Source: a virus
Virus record (IMG/VR): IMGVR_UViG_3300042691_012182
Span: 1 to 24,012 of that record
Direction: 5' to 3' (one strand)
DNA length: 24,012 nucleotides
Positions 1 through 23,349 of the stretch are shown here, in pieces. The translations under genes and the position numbers were made by a program. Under the pieces are notes generated by a model. The model searched no databases and was not told where the DNA came from. It saw only the letters and a program-made list of their open reading frames with translations. Positions within the stretch are counted from its first letter, which is position 1, and every line of letters begins with the position of its first letter.

Positions 1-72
1 TTCTTCATCTAGATAAAATGCATACTGTTCGTCTACTTGATGCCATTCGTGTTTGACTATGGTGACCATCAT
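1..72 (-). CDS. Hypothetical phage protein, N-terminal part only
   Basis: The frame opens with two consecutive ATG codons (72 and 69) and stays open to the window edge, so only the first 23-24 residues are seen (MVTIVKHEWHQVDEQYAFYL and on). A clear ribosome binding site GGAGAAG lies just upstream at 74-80. The start overlaps the stop of the preceding gene as TGATG, which implies translational coupling. The KHEWHQVDEQYA stretch resembles, from memory, small conserved T4-like phage proteins of unknown function. Nothing can be said about the C-terminal part. Confidence 0.7.
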   Translation of the reverse strand, partial: MMVTIVKHEWHQVDEQYAFYLDEE

Positions 73-509
73 TCTTCTCCTTCAATCACTTCATTACCAT
101 CAGTATCATACTTCTTACCAGCATTAGGACCATCAACACGCTCAAAGATAGGATCACAGTCGATGATCATCTCAGAGTCACCTTGTATCCAATCTTGTTC
201 CTCTAAGTCGTATACACTGTTACCTTCTTCAAAATATTCTTCAAGTAGTTGTTGTGTTTCTTCATCACAACCATCTAGGTCTTGACTATCCCAGCAACCA
301 TCCCATGTTTCTATGAGTTCTACATCATACCCACAGTCCCATAGATTATCACCCGCACTAATCTTTGGTACGTTCTCATCTTCTGTCTCTACTTCAAAGC
401 TACCCCAACGCCAACCTGTCTCTGACATAACAGTATTATCGCCTTTGTGATAATATTGACGTTCAACTAATGATTTCTTCCAACTTGGGTGAATTATCCA
501 TTGTGCCAT
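69..509 (-). CDS. Conserved hypothetical phage protein, acidic
   Basis: A 146-residue, strongly acidic, Trp-rich protein with no recognised catalytic motif. It begins MAQWIIHPSWKKSLVERQYY and has a repeated D/W pattern in the middle (ETWDGCWDSQDLDGC). It resembles, from memory, conserved proteins of T4-like cyanophages, which have no known role. The start at 509 is well supported by AAGGAGCAATC directly before ATG. It overlaps the preceding small gene by 16 bases and the following one by the TGATG junction. No signal peptide or membrane helix is seen, so it is probably cytoplasmic. Confidence 0.75.
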   Translation of the reverse strand: MAQWIIHPSWKKSLVERQYYHKGDNTVMSETGWRWGSFEVETEDENVPKISAGDNLWDCGYDVELIETWDGCWDSQDLDGCDEETQQLLEEYFEEGNSVYDLEEQDWIQGDSEMIIDCDPIFERVDGPNAGKKYDTDGNEVIEGEE

Positions 510-670
510 GATTGCTCCTTCTCTCGTAGTTTCTCAATCTCATTTGCAGCTTCTTCTAGCAGGTCAGCTATTCTGTCAGGCTGTCCTTCTTGTACCGATT
601 TTCTAGAAGGTATCTGACGGCGTATCTCTGCTCTCTTACGAAGTCTATACACTAAGTCGTTCTCGCTCAT
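494..670 (-). CDS. Small hypothetical protein with amphipathic C-terminal helix
   Basis: A 58-residue protein starting MSENDLVYRLRKRAEIRRQI and continuing into a helix with the pattern IADLLEEAANEIEKLRE (about residues 34-50). This helix pattern is common in short early phage proteins and may mediate dimerisation. AAGGT lies 7 bases before the ATG. The start overlaps the stop of the upstream 33-residue gene as ATGA, and its own end overlaps the next gene by 16 bases. Function unknown. Confidence 0.65.
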   Translation of the reverse strand: MSENDLVYRLRKRAEIRRQIPSRKSVQEGQPDRIADLLEEAANEIEKLREKEQSWHNG

Positions 671-768
671 GCTCGTACCTTATGAGTTACATACAGAACT
701 ATTCCCATGGCTATAATGATTCCTACTGCTACTCCATAGAAGAATGTGGTCCAGGCTAGTAGTGTCAT
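667..768 (-). CDS. Tiny single-helix membrane protein (33 aa)
   Basis: The frame encodes MTLLAWTTFFYGVAVGIIIA followed by MGIVLYVTHKVRA and a stop: almost entirely one transmembrane helix (about residues 4-28) with a short basic tail, so the C-terminus probably faces the cytoplasm. It is joined by 4-base ATGA overlaps to the genes on both sides, the main reason to accept so short a frame. The ribosome binding site is weak, which fits translation coupled to the lipoprotein gene before it. Function unknown. Confidence 0.55.
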   Translation of the reverse strand: MTLLAWTTFFYGVAVGIIIAMGIVLYVTHKVRA

Positions 769-902
769 TTTGTTTTGTACTCACAGATAATCTGATTATT
801 CTGTATACATTGCTTTGTAGATGGATCGGATACTGATATCACTCTCATCTGATATTGAGTGGTGCAGGCTGAGAGGAATAAAATCGGTATCAGGAGTTTC
901 AT
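765..902 (-). CDS. Mini-lipoprotein (45 aa)
   Basis: A 45-residue frame with an N-terminal signal (MKLLIPILFLSAC) ending in a lipobox L-S-A-C, so residue Cys13 should be lipidated and the product anchored in a membrane after signal peptidase II cleavage. The mature part is about 33 residues with two more Cys (near 32 and 40) that could form a disulfide. Stop and start codons overlap the neighbours by ATGA on both sides. Phages use small lipoproteins for superinfection exclusion (T5 Llp is one example) or lysis control; which, if either, applies here is not shown by the sequence. Confidence 0.65.
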   Translation of the reverse strand: MKLLIPILFLSACTTQYQMRVISVSDPSTKQCIQNNQIICEYKTK

Positions 903-1153
903 TCTATCAGCGTCCTGCTCTGAATGTTCCAGTAATGCTCGACGGCTTTCTTAGCGTAGTCTTGTTCAATGTATTGTCCTAGAGGTTTCTCATCATCAAA
1001 CTTCAAAGGATATGCATAGGTACCTGTATGGACGGCGGCGCACCAAATGTCCTGGAGGGCGAATTTATGGGCGGCTCCCACAATCATACCAGAGTCAGTA
1101 TCATAGTAATACCACTTAGCGTTTCTCTCACGCCATTCATAAGTCTTGTTCAT
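899..1153 (-). CDS. Conserved hypothetical phage protein
   Basis: An 84-residue soluble protein, rich in Tyr and Trp, with the recognisable stretch WCAAVHTGTYAYPLKFDDEK (about residues 37-56) and a C-terminal helix AKKAVEHYW. I recall similar frames in marine T4-like phages but know of no function. It starts at ATG 1153 inside the end of the upstream mini-lipoprotein gene (17-base overlap) and hands over to the next lipoprotein gene by ATGA. No membrane segment or metal site is visible. Confidence 0.7.
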   Translation of the reverse strand: MNKTYEWRERNAKWYYYDTDSGMIVGAAHKFALQDIWCAAVHTGTYAYPLKFDDEKPLGQYIEQDYAKKAVEHYWNIQSRTLIE

Positions 1154-1286
1154 AGACTTCTTTCTTTAGAAAAACTCTGGAGAAGTCTGCTTTGAAACCA
1201 TTGACTTCTTTTTTAAATTCATTCTTGGCTTCTTTTATAGAAGCACAACCAGATAGCAATAGACAGATTAGCAGTAGTTTTTTCAT
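1137..1286 (-). CDS. Mini-lipoprotein (49 aa)
   Basis: A 49-residue frame with a textbook lipoprotein signal: basic start MKK, hydrophobic run LLLICLLL, then lipobox L-S-G-C with Cys14 as the lipidated residue. The mature part (about 36 residues) is charged and probably helical (ASIKEAKNEFKKEVNGFKAD). Its ATG overlaps the upstream stop as TAATG, and its end overlaps the next gene by 17 bases. It is the second tiny lipoprotein within 400 bases. Membrane anchoring is a firm prediction; function is unknown. Confidence 0.68.
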   Translation of the reverse strand: MKKLLLICLLLSGCASIKEAKNEFKKEVNGFKADFSRVFLKKEVYEQDL

Positions 1287-1486
1287 TACCAATCACTCTC
1301 GTCAGCAATGGATGCTGTAACCTTCAAAGGAGTACCATGAATCACTGTTTCCCATTCCATCTGTAGTGTATAACCAATACCAGAATGGTTGTCATAGATT
1401 AAATCAAAACCTCCTTTGATATTGTGTTTCTCAACAAGTTCATTAATAACCTTGAGGTCAGCAATGTTAATAGACATTTTATTCAT
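1286..1486 (-). CDS. Hypothetical protein (66 aa)
   Basis: A 66-residue soluble protein (MNKMSINIADLKVINELVEK, then a probable beta-rich second half with GFDLIYDNHSGIGYTLQMEW). AGGA stands 7 bases before ATG 1486, and the start overlaps the upstream stop as ATGA; a second ATG three codons in is also possible. No family recognised. It belongs to the chain of coupled small early genes. Confidence 0.6.
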   Translation of the reverse strand: MNKMSINIADLKVINELVEKHNIKGGFDLIYDNHSGIGYTLQMEWETVIHGTPLKVTASIADESDW

Positions 1487-1677
1487 TTGAGGTTCCTATC
1501 AATTAGAAAGCGAACATAGTCAATATCACCTTCCGATTCTTCTATATAGGTTTCTATTTCTTGTATGATTAAATTGGCAAACTTGACTGAATCAAAATGC
1601 AAGTGGCCATCAATCAGTACACCATTGATATAATGACTCCAGCATTGACCAGTTAGTTCTTGTATTTTCTTATTCAT
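1483..1677 (-). CDS. Small phage protein of the MNxKxxEL paralogue family
   Basis: A 64-residue protein opening MNKKIQELTGQCW, then a His/Asp loop and an amphipathic helix VKFANLIIQEIETYIEESE. The N-terminal MNxKxxEL motif and the F-(A/E)-x-L-I-x-x-E helix are shared with the frames at 1670-1918, 2181-2438 and 2641-2889. Such families of short repeated genes are common in T4-like marine phages. It overlaps both neighbours by a few bases. Function unknown. Confidence 0.65.
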   Translation of the reverse strand: MNKKIQELTGQCWSHYINGVLIDGHLHFDSVKFANLIIQEIETYIEESEGDIDYVRFLIDRNLK

Positions 1678-1918
1678 CTAGTTGTAACGGTCCAAAATGT
1701 TGACGGATACGCATAGCAGCTCCACCAGAAGTCATCTGTGTAGTCATACCATTCACGCAGATATTAACACATTCTTCTACAATTAACTCATAGAACTTTT
1801 CTAGTTCTTTATCATAATTAGATGACCAGTCAACAAAGGCATCTCGTGGACGCCAATCTTCATCTTCCCACAGAGCAAAACCTGCTTTGTCTACTAGTTC
1901 TATAAATTTAGGATTCAC
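1670..1918 (-). CDS. Small phage protein of the MNxKxxEL paralogue family
   Basis: An 82-residue member of the local family: MNPKFIELVDKAG at the start, the helix LEKFYELIVEECVNIC in the middle, and IRQHFG near the C-terminus, the most complete set of the three family motifs. The start codon is GTG at 1918, supported by GGAG at a 6-base spacing and by the GTGA overlap with the stop of the MazG-like gene. It is probably a soluble helical protein. No function is known to me. Confidence 0.68.
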   Translation of the reverse strand: MNPKFIELVDKAGFALWEDEDWRPRDAFVDWSSNYDKELEKFYELIVEECVNICVNGMTTQMTSGGAAMRIRQHFGPLQLDE

Positions 1919-2184
1919 AGATTACTCCATTTCTTTAGTTTCTCACGTTTCTGTTCTTTATAGAATTCTAAGTCAGCCTCTTTGAGAATGTTATGCTTTA
2001 TGCATAGATCAATCATACAAAGTAAATCACCAATTTCTTTGTGCAGCAGTTCATCATTATATTCTTTTGTAATAGGATTGTAGCCATGTAGACCATATCG
2101 ATGTATCTTTGAGATAATCTGTATGACCTCTCCACATTCTTCTTGTAGAATGACTAAAGCCTCATCACAATTGAGTGTACTCAT
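1915..2184 (-). CDS. MazG-like nucleotide pyrophosphohydrolase family protein
   Basis: An 89-residue all-alpha protein with the two acidic metal-binding motifs of the MazG/dUTPase-like superfamily: EECGE (residues 15-19, in helix QEECGEVIQIISKI) and KEIGD (49-53, in helix LLHKEIGDLLCMIDLC). These residues bind Mg2+ in enzymes that cleave (d)NTPs to the monophosphate and pyrophosphate. Its length matches single-domain phage MazG-like proteins. In a phage it could clean up non-canonical nucleotides or lower alarmones, but the substrate cannot be read from the sequence. It sits between two members of the MNxKxxEL family and is joined to both by ATGA/GTGA overlaps. Confidence 0.75.
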   Translation of the reverse strand: MSTLNCDEALVILQEECGEVIQIISKIHRYGLHGYNPITKEYNDELLHKEIGDLLCMIDLCIKHNILKEADLEFYKEQKREKLKKWSNL

Positions 2185-2438
2185 TTTGGTAGATTATATT
2201 CTCTGGTATATTGACTTGTGATTGAACCATGAGCATCAGGTCCTTCATATCTAACATTTGATTCTACAGGCAGACCAAAACGCTTTCGTATGTTCTTTTT
2301 GTCTGCTTGTGAACCGCAACAAGCAACACATTCTTGAACAACTAACTCAAACAATGTTTCAATTCTATTCTGACATTCTTCGCTGATATACTTGTGTGTA
2401 CCAGACTTCAACATCAGTTCTTTTAATTGTTCATTCAT
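2181..2438 (-). CDS. Small phage protein of the MNxKxxEL paralogue family
   Basis: An 85-residue protein with the family motifs MNEQLKELMLKSG (1-13), IETLFELVVQECVACC (about 26-41) and IRKRFG (about 50-55), followed by a tail of about 30 residues not shared with the paralogues (ending TREYNLPK). The two adjacent Cys after the helix and the VNIC of the 1670-1918 paralogue are in the same place. ATGA junctions link it to the genes on both sides. Function unknown. Confidence 0.67.
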   Translation of the reverse strand: MNEQLKELMLKSGTHKYISEECQNRIETLFELVVQECVACCGSQADKKNIRKRFGLPVESNVRYEGPDAHGSITSQYTREYNLPK

Positions 2439-2641
2439 TTTAACACACTTCTGTCAATACAATGAAAACCTTCCATACCTCTTATCATGATTCCATTTCT
2501 TTCTTCACATTGTTCAGCATCATGCCGTACAGATTCACTAGCTAACCATGCAACAATAAAAATCATTGCCATTCCAATACCAAATACAATCAGTATATGC
2601 TTCCAAGTTTTAGATTTAGATTCGGTTTCAAATTCGTACAT
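2435..2641 (-). CDS. Single-pass membrane protein (68 aa)
   Basis: A charged N-terminus (MYEFETESKSKTWK) precedes one transmembrane helix (about residues 15-34, ILIVFGIGMAMIFIVAWL) and then ESVRHDAEQCEERNG with a second Cys at HCIDR. With a Lys-rich N-side the C-terminal Cys-containing part is likely periplasmic. The SxSxRHxxxxC stretch after the helix recurs in the neighbouring 2886-3059 protein, so the two may be distant paralogues. It starts at ATG 2641, overlapping the previous stop as TAATG. Function unknown. Confidence 0.63.
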   Translation of the reverse strand: MYEFETESKSKTWKHILIVFGIGMAMIFIVAWLASESVRHDAEQCEERNGIMIRGMEGFHCIDRSVLK

Positions 2642-2889
2642 TATAATATCCCAAATTCGTTTTTAATGGCACTTATATAAATCTCTGCACCTTTACCATA
2701 AAGAAAGCCTGCAGGAATCTTGTCTTGCTCTCGTATAATTCTGAATACTTCTTGAAGAATGTTTCTACCATAATCTTCAAGTTCGGCCATGTCTGCCCAA
2801 TCTGAAACAAAATACACTCTAGGTGTTTCGTTGTCAATGTAGTTCAGAACACCAGCATCAAGAGCTAGTTCTTGAAACTTCTCGTTCAT
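2641..2889 (-). CDS. Small phage protein of the MNxKxxEL paralogue family (divergent)
   Basis: An 82-residue protein starting MNEKFQELALDAG, the same opening as the three paralogues downstream. The helix YGRNILQEVFRIIRE corresponds to the F-x-LIVxEC helix but lacks its Cys, and IKNEFGIL at the C-terminus matches the IRxxFG motif. It also has an insertion with an acidic patch (DWADMAELEDYG). It is coupled to the upstream membrane protein by ATGA. Function unknown. Confidence 0.65.
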   Translation of the reverse strand: MNEKFQELALDAGVLNYIDNETPRVYFVSDWADMAELEDYGRNILQEVFRIIREQDKIPAGFLYGKGAEIYISAIKNEFGIL

Positions 2890-6818: not shown

Positions 6819-7767
6819 TTGGTGTCCTCCTCTGAATCGCTTCCCACTGATAAGCGGTACTTATTATTTCTTTTAGACTATATTTAGGTTTAAAACCTAA
6901 TACTCTTTCTGAATGCTCAACATCTTTACATACTAACTTAGCAGGATCACCAGGTCTACGATCACTATATTTAATCTCAAGGTTGATACCTGTTACTTCT
7001 TCTACCATTGTAATAACATCCAGAACAGAATAACCTGAACCAGAACCGAGATTAAAAATGCTAGAAGTTTTATTTTCATTTAGAAACTCTGCTGCCTTTA
7101 CATGTGCTTCCGCTAAGTCGGATACATGTATATAGTCTCTTATGCAGGTACCGTCAGGAGTAGGAAAATCATTACCATACACAGTGAAATCATTCCTAGT
7201 AAGAATACGGGGTATGAGATGAGATTCAGGCTCATGATTCTCACCAAACTCGCCATCGGGATCAGCACCAGCAACATTGAAATACCTAAGAATAGCACTA
7301 TTGATTCCTTCCTTGTTTGCATCTGCTAGAATGTTTTCACACATTCGTTTAGTTCTACCATAAACCGATTCGGAATATTCAGCAGCACAAGATGATGAGA
7401 ACACAATGTTTTTACATCCATATTCTTTCATCAATCTTAGAATATTGATTGTGCCAGAAACATTGTTCTCATAGTAATATGTAGGTATTTCTTCACTTTC
7501 ACCCACCTCTATTGAACCTGCAAGATGATAGACAATATCAAAACCAAACTTATCATCATCAAACATCTTACCATATTCTATCTCATCAAGAATATGGTCG
7601 TAGTTTCTGATATCGGTACATATGTACTCATCACAATATTTTGTTACCATGAGTTCTGATGAATGTTTTCGATCCATCACAATCACATAATAACCATTCT
7701 TCTTCAATTCTTTTTGAAGGTGATGGCCAATATAGCCAGCACCTCCAGTCACTAATGCTTTCTTCAT
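6793..7767 (-). CDS. galE: UDP-glucose 4-epimerase-like NAD-dependent sugar epimerase
   Basis: A 324-residue extended short-chain dehydrogenase, near the usual 330-340 of GalE. The NAD-binding motif TGGAGYIGHH (7-16) opens the protein, with TDIRNYDHI as the next GalE landmark. The catalytic triad is present: Ser in IVFSSSCA (121-128) and Y136-GRT-K140. RYFNVAGADPDGEFGE and the GTCIRDYIHVSDLA region are typical of GalE rather than dTDP-glucose dehydratases. It interconverts UDP-glucose and UDP-galactose (or the GlcNAc pair). It starts at ATG 7767, overlapping the upstream VWA gene by ATGA, and is the first gene of the sugar module. Confidence 0.88.
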   Translation of the reverse strand: MKKALVTGGAGYIGHHLQKELKKNGYYVIVMDRKHSSELMVTKYCDEYICTDIRNYDHILDEIEYGKMFDDDKFGFDIVYHLAGSIEVGESEEIPTYYYENNVSGTINILRLMKEYGCKNIVFSSSCAAEYSESVYGRTKRMCENILADANKEGINSAILRYFNVAGADPDGEFGENHEPESHLIPRILTRNDFTVYGNDFPTPDGTCIRDYIHVSDLAEAHVKAAEFLNENKTSSIFNLGSGSGYSVLDVITMVEEVTGINLEIKYSDRRPGDPAKLVCKDVEHSERVLGFKPKYSLKEIISTAYQWEAIQRRTPNATIGIRD

Positions 7768-9890
7768 GCAATCATTCCAATAAAGCGGTTGAGTACAACA
7801 CGGTTAATAACTTTGTTTGTATTGTACTTAGTAAAGGCGTTTACGAGGCCTCGGGTAGTTGTTGATTTTACTTCAAGTTCACTATCACTGTCAACATCAG
7901 TTTCGGCACGAACGATATAATATTCATCATAGCCAGATGTTGTACAAATCACATTCTTTTCTTTCATGAACTTTTCACGAATATCATCCATGTTTGCAGT
8001 TTTAGGAAACAAGCGAGAAGTTGCTGTTCTAAACTCACGGCTATTTACAAGATAGAAGCCAACAACATTACTTTTTGTAACTTGTTTGAATATCTTCAAT
8101 GCTGCTGAAGTAAATCCTTCACATCCACTCTCTTTGATTTTTTCAGAAATACCAGTGCTTTGATGACGCATAACACCAATCTGGGTTCCCGTTGTCATAA
8201 AACGTGAACTTGAACCATATTCACCATCAGTAACTCTTTTCTGTGTTAAGAGATGACCTTCACCATCGGTAAGAAACACAGTATTGACTACTTGCAGTTT
8301 GTACTGTTTCTGAAACTCAGGAACAATCTTCATTGCTGTAAAGATTGTCTCATTGAGTGGAGTATACTGCATGTCCATCCATTGTGGGAAACCATTTATG
8401 CGGTGCGCCATTCTTGCTGCATTTGGATACATACTTGCTGAACCATGTAGCAAAGCAGATGCCATGTAAGACAGGTCACTTGCATTCATTTTGCTAGAAA
8501 ATAAATTTAACAAATTGAATGATCGAATAAGAATATCATTTTCTTTATATTCTGCTAGGCCTTCACTTTTTCTTTCTCCGTTTTCGTGATAGTACATGTT
8601 TGAGAACGCATATACTTCAAACGGAATATTTACTTTCTTGCAGAATAAAACAAGATTTAAGAGTTGCTTGATAGTTGGGTGTAGGTAGTTCACCATTGAA
8701 CCAGACCAGTCTAGAAATATCACAAGACCATGAGATTTACCACCAGGCACAACAGTCAATCGTTTAAAGATATCGTCATTGAACTTATATGAATAAATCT
8801 TACTCATATTCAGTTCGCCAGTTTTTGCAACACTCGCACGTTTCATTTGATCCGCATTTTTACGGAGTTCAAATTCTTTCACAAGATAAGAAACAACTTT
8901 CGCTGATTTGGATTTGAAAGTGTTGAATACGCTCGTGTCTACTTGACCAGCATAATATGAGTCTTTCTTGTAACGATTGATAATACGCTTATATGGTATT
9001 ACAATGCTATCTAGATTGAGATTTTCTGGAATATTGGCATAATTGTAATCCATCGAATCTTCACTTAGAAGTTCCTTTTCATGTTTACGAAATGCATCAT
9101 CAGTGTGTGATTCTACTTTATCTTCACCACTATTGAAATTATCATTTTCAATTTCTTCAGAATCCATCTCATCAGAAAATTCTGGTGATTGACGTTTTTC
9201 TTGTTGTTCATCTTCACCATCTTCTTCTTCACCATCATCAAAATCCATGGTCTCCGATGAATACTCAGTATCATCATCCCACTCATCAGTAGGAGTTTCT
9301 TCTTCTTGACGTTTTTCTTTTTGTTTTTCTTTTTGTTGACGATATAGTTCTTGAATCTTTTTAGAAAGTTCAATAACATCATCAAAAGTTTCCAACTCAT
9401 TCATTTCATCGACAATTGCAAGTTCTTCTTCATTGAACTTGATGCCAAGGTGTGCGCCAATCTTGAAATGAATATTCAAACGGTCAAGAATATTCATACC
9501 ATTTAGATCAACACCTTCAGTTGCAAAAAAGTTATCGTTATAAAGTTGACGATATGCTTTTGAGAATGAGGAACGCAGGCCAGGATACTTGCGTTTGATG
9601 AGTTTCTCAATTCTTGCATCTTCTACAATATTGAGAATAACTTTAGGAATTTTCAAATCAATAACTGAATCATGCCAACCTTCAGCAGGAGTATTTAATG
9701 CATGACCAACTTCATGACCAACAAAGAGATCATACATTTCTGGAGTAAGAGTATCTTTAAGAATAGGAATTACCAGCTTACGTTCTTTTGTATTAAAATA
9801 AGCGGTAGGAACTTTTTTATGTTCAACAATGAGGTTTTCCGTCGCCATCAATTTAGCGAGTTGTGACTTGGATTCTTGTGTAGTTTGCAT
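7764..9890 (-). CDS. Large protein with HExxH metallopeptidase-like and VWA domains
   Basis: A 708-residue protein. Near the N-terminus is H59-E-V-G-H63, a zincin-type motif, with NIVEDARIEK (88-96) supplying a possible third ligand or conserved helix. Residues about 190-265 are a highly acidic, Glu/Asp-rich linker. From about 385 on is a von Willebrand factor A domain whose metal site DWSGS (394-398) is intact, with FLTDGEG further on. The layout resembles CobT-like and other VWA proteins that partner MoxR/CobS AAA+ ATPases; no ATPase gene is in the window. Frames of this type occur in marine T4-like phages and are often called peptidases. Promoter P3 lies just upstream. Substrate unknown. 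Confidence 0.78.
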   Translation of the reverse strand: MQTTQESKSQLAKLMATENLIVEHKKVPTAYFNTKERKLVIPILKDTLTPEMYDLFVGHEVGHALNTPAEGWHDSVIDLKIPKVILNIVEDARIEKLIKRKYPGLRSSFSKAYRQLYNDNFFATEGVDLNGMNILDRLNIHFKIGAHLGIKFNEEELAIVDEMNELETFDDVIELSKKIQELYRQQKEKQKEKRQEEETPTDEWDDDTEYSSETMDFDDGEEEDGEDEQQEKRQSPEFSDEMDSEEIENDNFNSGEDKVESHTDDAFRKHEKELLSEDSMDYNYANIPENLNLDSIVIPYKRIINRYKKDSYYAGQVDTSVFNTFKSKSAKVVSYLVKEFELRKNADQMKRASVAKTGELNMSKIYSYKFNDDIFKRLTVVPGGKSHGLVIFLDWSGSMVNYLHPTIKQLLNLVLFCKKVNIPFEVYAFSNMYYHENGERKSEGLAEYKENDILIRSFNLLNLFSSKMNASDLSYMASALLHGSASMYPNAARMAHRINGFPQWMDMQYTPLNETIFTAMKIVPEFQKQYKLQVVNTVFLTDGEGHLLTQKRVTDGEYGSSSRFMTTGTQIGVMRHQSTGISEKIKESGCEGFTSAALKIFKQVTKSNVVGFYLVNSREFRTATSRLFPKTANMDDIREKFMKEKNVICTTSGYDEYYIVRAETDVDSDSELEVKSTTTRGLVNAFTKYNTNKVINRVVLNRFIGMIA

Positions 9891-9918
9891 TTTGATATCT
9901 CTCTATTGAAGATGATGC

Positions 9919-9947
9919 ATTATCTCATGGATCCAATGATTTGTCAA
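9919..9947 (-). promoter_or_regulatory. Sigma70-type promoter P3 for the VWA/sugar block
   Basis: Leftward: TTGACA (9947-9942), a 17-base spacer ending in TGA (extended -10), then GATAAT (9924-9919). The predicted start is about 9912, giving a leader of roughly 22 bases with AGAGAG eight bases before ATG 9890. It sits in one of the few real intergenic gaps of the window (9891-9968). Confidence 0.75.
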
Positions 9948-9968
9948 TGGAAAACCTCATTGTTGTAT

Positions 9969-22022: not shown

Positions 22023-22637
22023 TTATGCTCCTAAAACATGTAGTGCGTGTTCGTAGTGTTTTATTCTATCATCAAGTCCTATTGTTCCACCGTTGATTCT
22101 CTTGGTCATACCAACGATATCATTCTTATCCGCAAAAGTATTGATTTTATTTGTTTCCCAGAACCAACATGCAGACTGAGCAGCACCTTCAAATGTCTGT
22201 GTGTACTCTGCGGCTTCTTCTGGTGAGATTTCTAATGATGCAGCAAACCAAGTATAGTTTGTTTTGCCTGTCAACTGAATCAGTCCACGACCACGATATT
22301 TCCATCCATCTCCTGATGCTTCGTTGCCGTTACCCATACGGTCTGCATAAATCCTATTTGCAATTTTTTGTGGATTTCTTTCGTATGCTTTTGCTGTAGG
22401 CATGTCTTTGAAATATTTTGAAAATAATTTCATCAGACTTTCTGCCTTATAGTTCAAATTTTCTGTAAGAAAAACAAAACCACCAGACTCATGGGCACAC
22501 TGAGCCACGAAAGCAGCAATACGCTGAGGTGTATTGATTTCATAGTCAGGAAGAAGTTGGCTTAATGCTTTGTGCCATTGGTCAATGTATGGATTTTTTG
22601 GAAGTAATTGTCTTAGTTGTTCTTTTTTTAGTTCCAT
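22023..22637 (-). CDS. Endolysin, glycoside hydrolase family 19 type
   Basis: A 204-residue GH19 (chitinase-like) lysozyme that cleaves peptidoglycan. The catalytic Glu50 is in FVAQCAHESGGF (43-54), with a second acidic residue at E59 in FLTENLNY. YRGRGLIQLTGKTNY (about 113-127) forms the substrate groove, and MTKRINGG is the C-terminal family mark. No signal peptide is seen, so release needs a holin. The start ATG 22637 abuts the spanin gene stop (1-base overlap), and it is followed by the Cys-rich secreted gene. Confidence 0.93.
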   Translation of the reverse strand: MELKKEQLRQLLPKNPYIDQWHKALSQLLPDYEINTPQRIAAFVAQCAHESGGFVFLTENLNYKAESLMKLFSKYFKDMPTAKAYERNPQKIANRIYADRMGNGNEASGDGWKYRGRGLIQLTGKTNYTWFAASLEISPEEAAEYTQTFEGAAQSACWFWETNKINTFADKNDIVGMTKRINGGTIGLDDRIKHYEHALHVLGA

Positions 22638-22894
22638 TATTTTACACTTTCATAAATGTTTTTTTGCTTATGATACCATTCACCCCATGCATCATTTTTC
22701 GCAGAACATTCATGATAATTTCCGTAATTAATACCTATCTTCTTTGCTATCTCACTTAGAGTAGCATCTTCAGGAGTCATTTGTAACTCCTTGCATTTTT
22801 CTAATAGAACCTCTGGTGCTTTTGGAAACTTTGGTACCACAGGTACTGGCGTTGAGCATCCCACAAGCAACAGAGCAATTAGAGCATATTTCAT
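22637..22894 (-). CDS. Lipoprotein, candidate outer-membrane spanin (Rz1-like)
   Basis: An 85-residue lipoprotein. The signal MKYALIALLLVGC has the lipobox L-V-G-C (Cys13), followed by a Pro-rich linker STPVPVVPKFPKAPEVL typical of Rz1-type o-spanins. Two further Cys (KCKELQ and HECSAK) and a C-terminal Trp/Tyr-rich helix (DAWGEWYHKQKNIYE) complete it. Together with the membrane protein encoded just before it (ATGA overlap), it would link inner and outer membranes during the last step of lysis. GGAG lies 9 bases before the ATG. Confidence 0.82.
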   Translation of the reverse strand: MKYALIALLLVGCSTPVPVVPKFPKAPEVLLEKCKELQMTPEDATLSEIAKKIGINYGNYHECSAKNDAWGEWYHKQKNIYESVK

Positions 22895-23349
22895 TTCGGT
22901 ATCTCCGCTGCTTTATTTATTGCCCCGATAAATTCTTTTGGTATTTCACATTCACCACCAGGTAAGAACTTAGTGTCATACTTGACAACTTCTCTGTCAA
23001 TATACTTGACAACTTCTTTACCTTTTTCTGTTATAATCTTATTCTTTACAACAACTTTCTCAACAATCTCAGTATTAACTTGCTTAGATTGTTCTTCAGC
23101 AATCTTTACTTTTTCTTGTAGTTCTTTAACTTTTGCTTCCCACTGGTCATTATTGTATATTGCACCAGACATAAAAACACCGATAACAATCATAACAATA
23201 GATGCTATTTGTATCGGTGTCTTGTAAACGTAAAGAGGAGGTATAAACTTAGCAAGAATCTTAACAAGATATGTTGATAATAAACCTATGATACCAACAA
23301 CTAAGATTCCATAAAAAATCCAATCAGGTAGCCATTTTAAAATCCACAT
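22891..23349 (-). CDS. Inner-membrane protein, candidate i-spanin (Rz-like)
   Basis: A 152-residue protein with two N-terminal hydrophobic segments (about 11-33 IFYGILVVGIIGLLSTYLV; 46-66 IQIASIVMIVIGVFMSGAIY). After them comes a periplasmic coiled coil (WEAKVKELQEKVKIAEEQSK on, with repeated EVVKY units at about 112-127) and a C-terminal GGECEIPKEFIGAINKAAE. The end resembles the C-terminal Cys-P-x-E/V-F-x-x-x-N-x-A-A of i-spanins. The usual i-spanin has one helix; this has two. It is coupled to the o-spanin candidate by ATGA, and the genes are not nested. Confidence 0.76.
   Translation of the reverse strand: MWILKWLPDWIFYGILVVGIIGLLSTYLVKILAKFIPPLYVYKTPIQIASIVMIVIGVFMSGAIYNNDQWEAKVKELQEKVKIAEEQSKQVNTEIVEKVVVKNKIITEKGKEVVKYIDREVVKYDTKFLPGGECEIPKEFIGAINKAAEIPK

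Follow-up and report, generated by a model that had tools for sequence, protein, structure and literature searches.

The known small lipoproteins with which phages exclude later phages, such as Llp and those of the BASEL/Rtp group, are encoded by genes that adjoin a receptor-binding tail gene. In phage lambda, the small lipoprotein gene Rz1 is nested in the +1 frame inside Rz. Rtp45, an exclusion lipoprotein of ~6 kDa, binds LptD from the periplasm and carries a Cys30-Cys38 disulfide, a C-x7-C spacing (PMC12685063); the disulfide of Llp bridges Cys11 and Cys58 and is not of the C-x7-C kind (PMC9586334). An overprinted viral gene is typically a younger +1 frame within an older one, its marks being reduced synonymous variation and a restricted distribution (PMC8227390). 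Here we describe two very small phage lipoprotein genes, lip1 and lip2, of which the second most likely arose by overprinting and was later freed. This overprinted origin is the new point, and the nested form of the gene is invisible from the window alone.

The window, by which we mean the whole stretch of DNA analysed, is a 24,012-base IMG/VR virus record, for which a set of 50,697 phage records contained no near match. Its translations include a recognisable ribonucleotide reductase, ThyX and primase; together with an Rz1-like LysC and a GH19-like endolysin, this gene content agrees with a T4-like phage whose hosts are Gram-negative. The features discussed below are as follows.

69..509, minus strand: conserved 146-aa gene, the synteny anchor downstream of lip2 in its free and nested forms.
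494..670, minus strand: conserved 58-aa gene downstream of the 33-aa frame, with relatives in L003, L085, L094, L109, L228 and L235.
667..768, minus strand: 33-aa single-helix membrane frame with ATGA at both ends, plausibly an orphan, unproven.
765..902, minus strand: lip2, a 45-aa lipoprotein with 8 free copies, read as homologous to a +1 frame in phage QueD.
899..1153, minus strand: gene for an 84-aa soluble protein between lip1 and lip2, overlapping lip1 by 17 nt.
1137..1286, minus strand: lip1, a 49-aa lipoprotein whose frame is kept in L084/L085 and L003.
1286..1486, minus strand: 66-aa gene upstream of lip1, joined to it by TAATG, with an 80% identical relative directly upstream of the lip1 of L003.
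22023-23349, minus strand: lysis cassette of GH19-like endolysin, LysC and an i-spanin-shaped membrane protein, joined via ATGA-type overlaps.
22637-22894, minus strand: Rz1-like LysC (Pfam E 1.4e-7).
22891-23349, minus strand: membrane protein of i-spanin shape.

Elsewhere in the window, small paralogues (64, 82, 85 and 82 aa) with a FAELIVQEC-like core flank a MazG-like gene (1483-2889, minus strand), and similar small proteins occur in all related loci. A 708-aa protein (7764-9890, minus strand) has a metallopeptidase/vWA-like look, with a GHEVGHAL motif and an LDWSGSM stretch; its Pfam matches were all below cut-off.

A first-pass annotation had seen at this locus a chain of three tiny envelope proteins, locked together with their neighbours by overlapping starts and stops. 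The frames of 49, 45 and 33 codons were found as described, with ATG starts on the minus strand (1286..1137, 902..765 and 768..667); the lipoboxes LSGC and LSAC are present in the 49-aa and 45-aa products, respectively, and the 33-aa product has a single hydrophobic helix (Kyte-Doolittle mean over 19 residues, 2.42 at its maximum). The junctions likewise exist, with TAATG leading into lip1, ATGA into lip2 and again into the 33-aa frame, and ATGA from that frame into the 58-aa gene, but the 84-aa gene that separates the two lipoproteins had been omitted from the chain. Relatives of this 84-aa gene occur in all eight contigs with free lip2 or lip1 and in one bridge contig described below (G028); in L003 (5001-5111) the relative stops after 36 codons, and the lip1 upstream of it is intact.

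The check proposed with that annotation, a search of relatives for the short frames with synteny, came out differently for the three. The lip1 and lip2 frames are kept, whereas a relative of the 33-aa frame was absent in 18 related contigs and in the 50,697 phage records. Its junctions alone leave this frame unproven, because frames 28-60 codons long that are bounded by ATGA on either side number 13 on the coding strand of the window, 2 on the other strand and 3.8 in shuffles. It is plausibly an orphan membrane protein, and the chance that it is spurious is considerable, if short of even. Pfam, NCBIfam and PADLOC gave no match above cut-off for lip1, lip2 or the 33-aa frame.

The lip1 product has the lipobox LLSGC and a charged mature part of 36 aa that is probably helical. 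In three pairs, dN/dS (Nei-Gojobori) was 0.07/0.65, 0.13/0.71 and 0.09/1.24 (ratios 0.07-0.18), and both alternative frames are interrupted by stops in all three copies. The lip2 frame is kept in L002, L085, L086, L094/L128, L109, L228 and L235, with dN/dS of 0.10/1.86 and 0.08/1.24 in two pairs (Nei-Gojobori), and the eight free copies have in common a lipobox and an invariant C-x7-C tail. In the window, the lip2 lipobox is FLSAC, with the lipid Cys at 864-866, Cys32 at 807-809 and Cys40 at 783-785; the AlphaFold2 model, of low confidence (pLDDT 62), folds the tail into a hairpin. Both genes are shorter than the usual limits of gene callers, which is what might be expected of spurious frames, but that reading is extremely improbable given frames kept across diverged phages at dN/dS of 0.05-0.18 over the lip1 and lip2 pairs. 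This conservation indicates that lip1 and lip2 are genuine genes under selection despite their reshuffled neighbours, so that the first-pass picture of three tiny genuine genes is partly confirmed, for two of the three frames.

The two genes adjoin directly in L085, with an overlap of 8 nt, and lip2 lies before a MazG-like gene in L002 and after one in L086, L109 and L228. From these changing neighbours, lip1 and lip2 appear to move as separate units within a small-gene cassette. Neither gene, nor the nested lip2 described next, was found in named phages; no lip2 was found in bacterial genomes, and a PDB sequence search with lip1 and lip2 returned nothing relevant. L099 was rejected as a relative of lip1, as the match falls within an unrelated 189-aa frame.

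A search with four free lip2 proteins gave matches contained entirely in the +1 frame of a longer gene. This nested lip2 is a lipoprotein frame of ~56 codons, represented by 25 distinct sequences. AlphaFold2 modelled the outer gene product at pLDDT 88, and the predicted structure has the T-fold of 6-carboxytetrahydropterin synthase, with E. coli QueD as top Foldseek match (E 1.4e-4). In named phages, the neighbours of QueD are TGT, QueE or GTP cyclohydrolase I. Fold and neighbourhood together identify the outer gene as a phage QueD, of 7-deazaguanine DNA modification. The TGT-like gene of the nested contigs owes its name to its motif and to the annotated neighbour in phage X1. A conserved "hypothetical protein" of phages Phosso, RHph_I1_18, PA5oct, ACP17 and X1 (L215-L219; PHROG 17812) is likewise a QueD-like enzyme. 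The TGT-like gene by nested lip2 in G032 (the contig of L270), at 8408-9955, contains a single in-frame TGA: either the sequencing is at fault or the modification module is beginning to decay.

Most +1 frames contain stops in 80 loci chosen by QueD similarity alone, as do those of most QueD relatives, named phages included, and the nested frame is therefore not a by-product of general QueD conservation. When the QueD segment was recoded synonymously, the +1 frame was open in just 5-13% of trials. Among 15 distinct QueD genes that carry the frame, synonymous codon diversity was 0.156 in the overlap with mature lip2 v 0.37-0.43 elsewhere, whereas 72 QueD genes without the frame showed no dip (0.525 in the overlap region v 0.48-0.53). 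Differences that are silent in QueD and alter lip2 were 3.4-fold lower inside the overlap than outside it in genes with the frame (0.163 v 0.557; P = 1.5e-5, permutation test excluding the search-pattern codons), against 0.712 inside and 0.676 outside in genes without it. A larger set of 24 genes gave 0.211 inside v 0.433 outside (P = 1e-5). Differences silent in both frames, a class that rests on few sites, were not reduced in the overlap, which argues against recent segment exchange or a nucleotide-level signal. Because QueD-silent, lip2-changing differences are so suppressed, both the QueD frame and the nested lip2 frame are under selection. In the older frame, synonymous variation is reduced within the overlap alone, a dip absent in the controls, and QueD is more widely distributed than the younger lip2 frame. 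Nested lip2 resembles described overprinted viral genes (PMC8227390) in its +1 nesting, lowered synonymous variation and restricted distribution; lip2 differs from them in having free-standing relatives in phages without the older gene.

Every one of the 25 nested peptides scored 33-60 bits against a profile of the eight free copies alone (E 1e-3 to 9e-12 at an assumed 8e8 frames, the estimated size of IMG/VR); the same profile gave other phage lipoproteins no more than 17 bits. The reverse search of 19,868 frames placed L085 (2e-11), L002 (5e-10) and the window (4.5e-8) among the top matches. These values became 1.8e-6, 0.003 and 0.014, respectively, when the columns of the search pattern were masked, and with pattern and leader both masked the similarity was no longer significant. 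That loss would be expected if the likeness of lip2 to the QueD +1 frame were due to chance, the hydrophobic leader and lipobox arising from +1 translation of the conserved PHRHIFHFRVSID motif, and the best look-alikes having been selected by a search with a short motif. The link did emerge when 2.9 million contigs were scanned with a motif, and among the 72 QueD genes lacking the lip2 frame, 34 read a hydrophobic leader and then a lipobox in +1 (e.g. MMYRFLLVLIGTFFISGC). These latent frames lie at the PHRHIFHFRV motif (L132-L211 QueD genes) and are open for ~30 codons; as expressed genes they were rejected, their distal part being without clear constraint. We nevertheless consider a chance likeness improbable, since the free-copy profile reaches E values of 1e-3 to 1e-11 in an IMG/VR-sized search space, dual-frame selection independently marks the nested frame as a gene, and the downstream gene and strand are common to both forms. 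We read the relationship of free and nested lip2 as homology, short of certainty.

Each of 22 contigs tested had one full-length lip2, nested or free. TGT was found in 8/8 nested contigs v 0/8 contigs with free lip2 or lip1, and QueD was found in 0/6 of the free lip2/lip1 contigs tested (G001-G004, G010 and G019), most of the contigs compared being fragments. The 146-aa gene lay 0.4-8.4 kb downstream of nested lip2, on the same strand, in 11/11 contigs having it (some of them near-copies), and 0.26-5.2 kb downstream of free lip2, again on the same strand, in the window, L085, L086 and L094. On a single strand, the bridge contig G028 (L120) carries TGT and nested lip2 together with the 146-aa gene and a relative of the window's 84-aa gene. 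The trait clusters on the QueD tree (8 changes v 21.6 in shuffles), and a single origin is unsupported by the tree. When a residual QueD frame was sought in free lip2, the two best of 24 frames were the predicted ones, at values that did not reach significance.

The order from nested to free is the simplest, given that the QueD family is the wider of the two and that the frame is missing from most of its members; on these sequence comparisons, we infer a single origin of lip2 and a change in that direction. The gene would have been born as a +1 frame overprinted within a phage QueD gene. The lineage of the window has neither QueD nor its partner TGT, and in it lip2 would have persisted free-standing, close to the gene that also lies downstream of the nested form. 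Taken as one statement, that selection maintains lip1 and lip2 as real genes and that the lip2 family arose by overprinting in QueD is, in our judgement, probable.

In E. coli, a +2 residue other than Asp leads to outer-membrane sorting. The lipobox and +2 residue read LSGC-A/S in lip1 and LSAC-T in lip2, with SGC-Q in relatives, and lipid processing followed by Lol sorting to the outer membrane is therefore predicted for both products. The envelope targeting proposed earlier stands in this predicted form for lip1 and lip2, with their conserved lipoboxes.

Short length, a lipobox and an outer-membrane-type +2 residue are also properties of exclusion lipoproteins, and the C-x7-C spacing of lip2 is that of Rtp45 (PMC12685063). 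These features speak for the earlier suggestion of a single superinfection-exclusion or receptor-masking cassette, like T5 Llp, made up of the three frames, but we regard it as unlikely: homology to Cor or Rtp45 was not found, no tail gene is adjacent, the genes fail to travel together and the 33-aa frame is an orphan. The neighbours of lip1 and lip2 are small genes or, for the nested form, QueD and TGT. With T5 Llp and Cor (PHROG 1119), lip1 and lip2 have in common that all are small outer-membrane lipoproteins of phages, that placing being predicted for lip1 and lip2; the cysteine spacing of Llp is unlike that of lip2, and the match is confined to the signal peptide. This match, of lip1 to PHROG Cor (E 0.0028, signal peptide alone aligned), vanished when the mature part was searched, and membership of Cor was rejected; the mature parts of lip1 and lip2 had no PHROG match. 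Compared with Rtp45/Oekolampad (PHROG 4281), lip2 is also a small lipoprotein with a C-x7-C pair in its mature part and an outer-membrane-type sorting residue, but that mature part has 33 aa v 57 and the gene lies away from the tail fibre gene. The hhalign probability against Rtp45 was 3%. PHROG 3641 was rejected as a bridge to Rtp45, being a leader match that also appears in Gram-positive control genomes.

An outer spanin of the lysis system would likewise be a small outer-membrane lipoprotein beside other small genes, and lambda Rz1 is nested in +1 as nested lip2 is. The gene harbouring nested lip2 is, however, the metabolic enzyme QueD and not a spanin, and the window has its own LysC, i-spanin-shaped protein and GH19-like endolysin in a lysis cassette outside which lip1 and lip2 lie. 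A spanin role for one of the two lipoproteins is very improbable, and a lysis role for lip1 and lip2 was rejected.

For lip2, the C-x7-C spacing common to it and Rtp45 favours a protein of the outer membrane as its target, reached from the periplasm. Its mature part would form a disulfide-closed hairpin that binds such a protein, blocking or reshaping it, so that later phages are excluded. By this analogy with Rtp45 and LptD, superinfection exclusion by lip2 is a possibility that we advance tentatively and would not yet favour. The full history, in which the QueD motif supplies a +1 signal peptide and lipobox, one lineage selects it, and the product survives loss of the module and acts on the outer membrane, is one to which we give almost as much credence as doubt.

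De novo genes are usually caught at a single stage, whereas here the parent frame, the nested gene and the free relatives can be compared. Gene callers miss a selected lipoprotein within an enzyme gene, and a phage family of unknown function, PHROG 17812, gains an identity as QueD. The product of lip2 has a testable place, the outer membrane, and a testable shape, the C-x7-C hairpin, both of them predicted.
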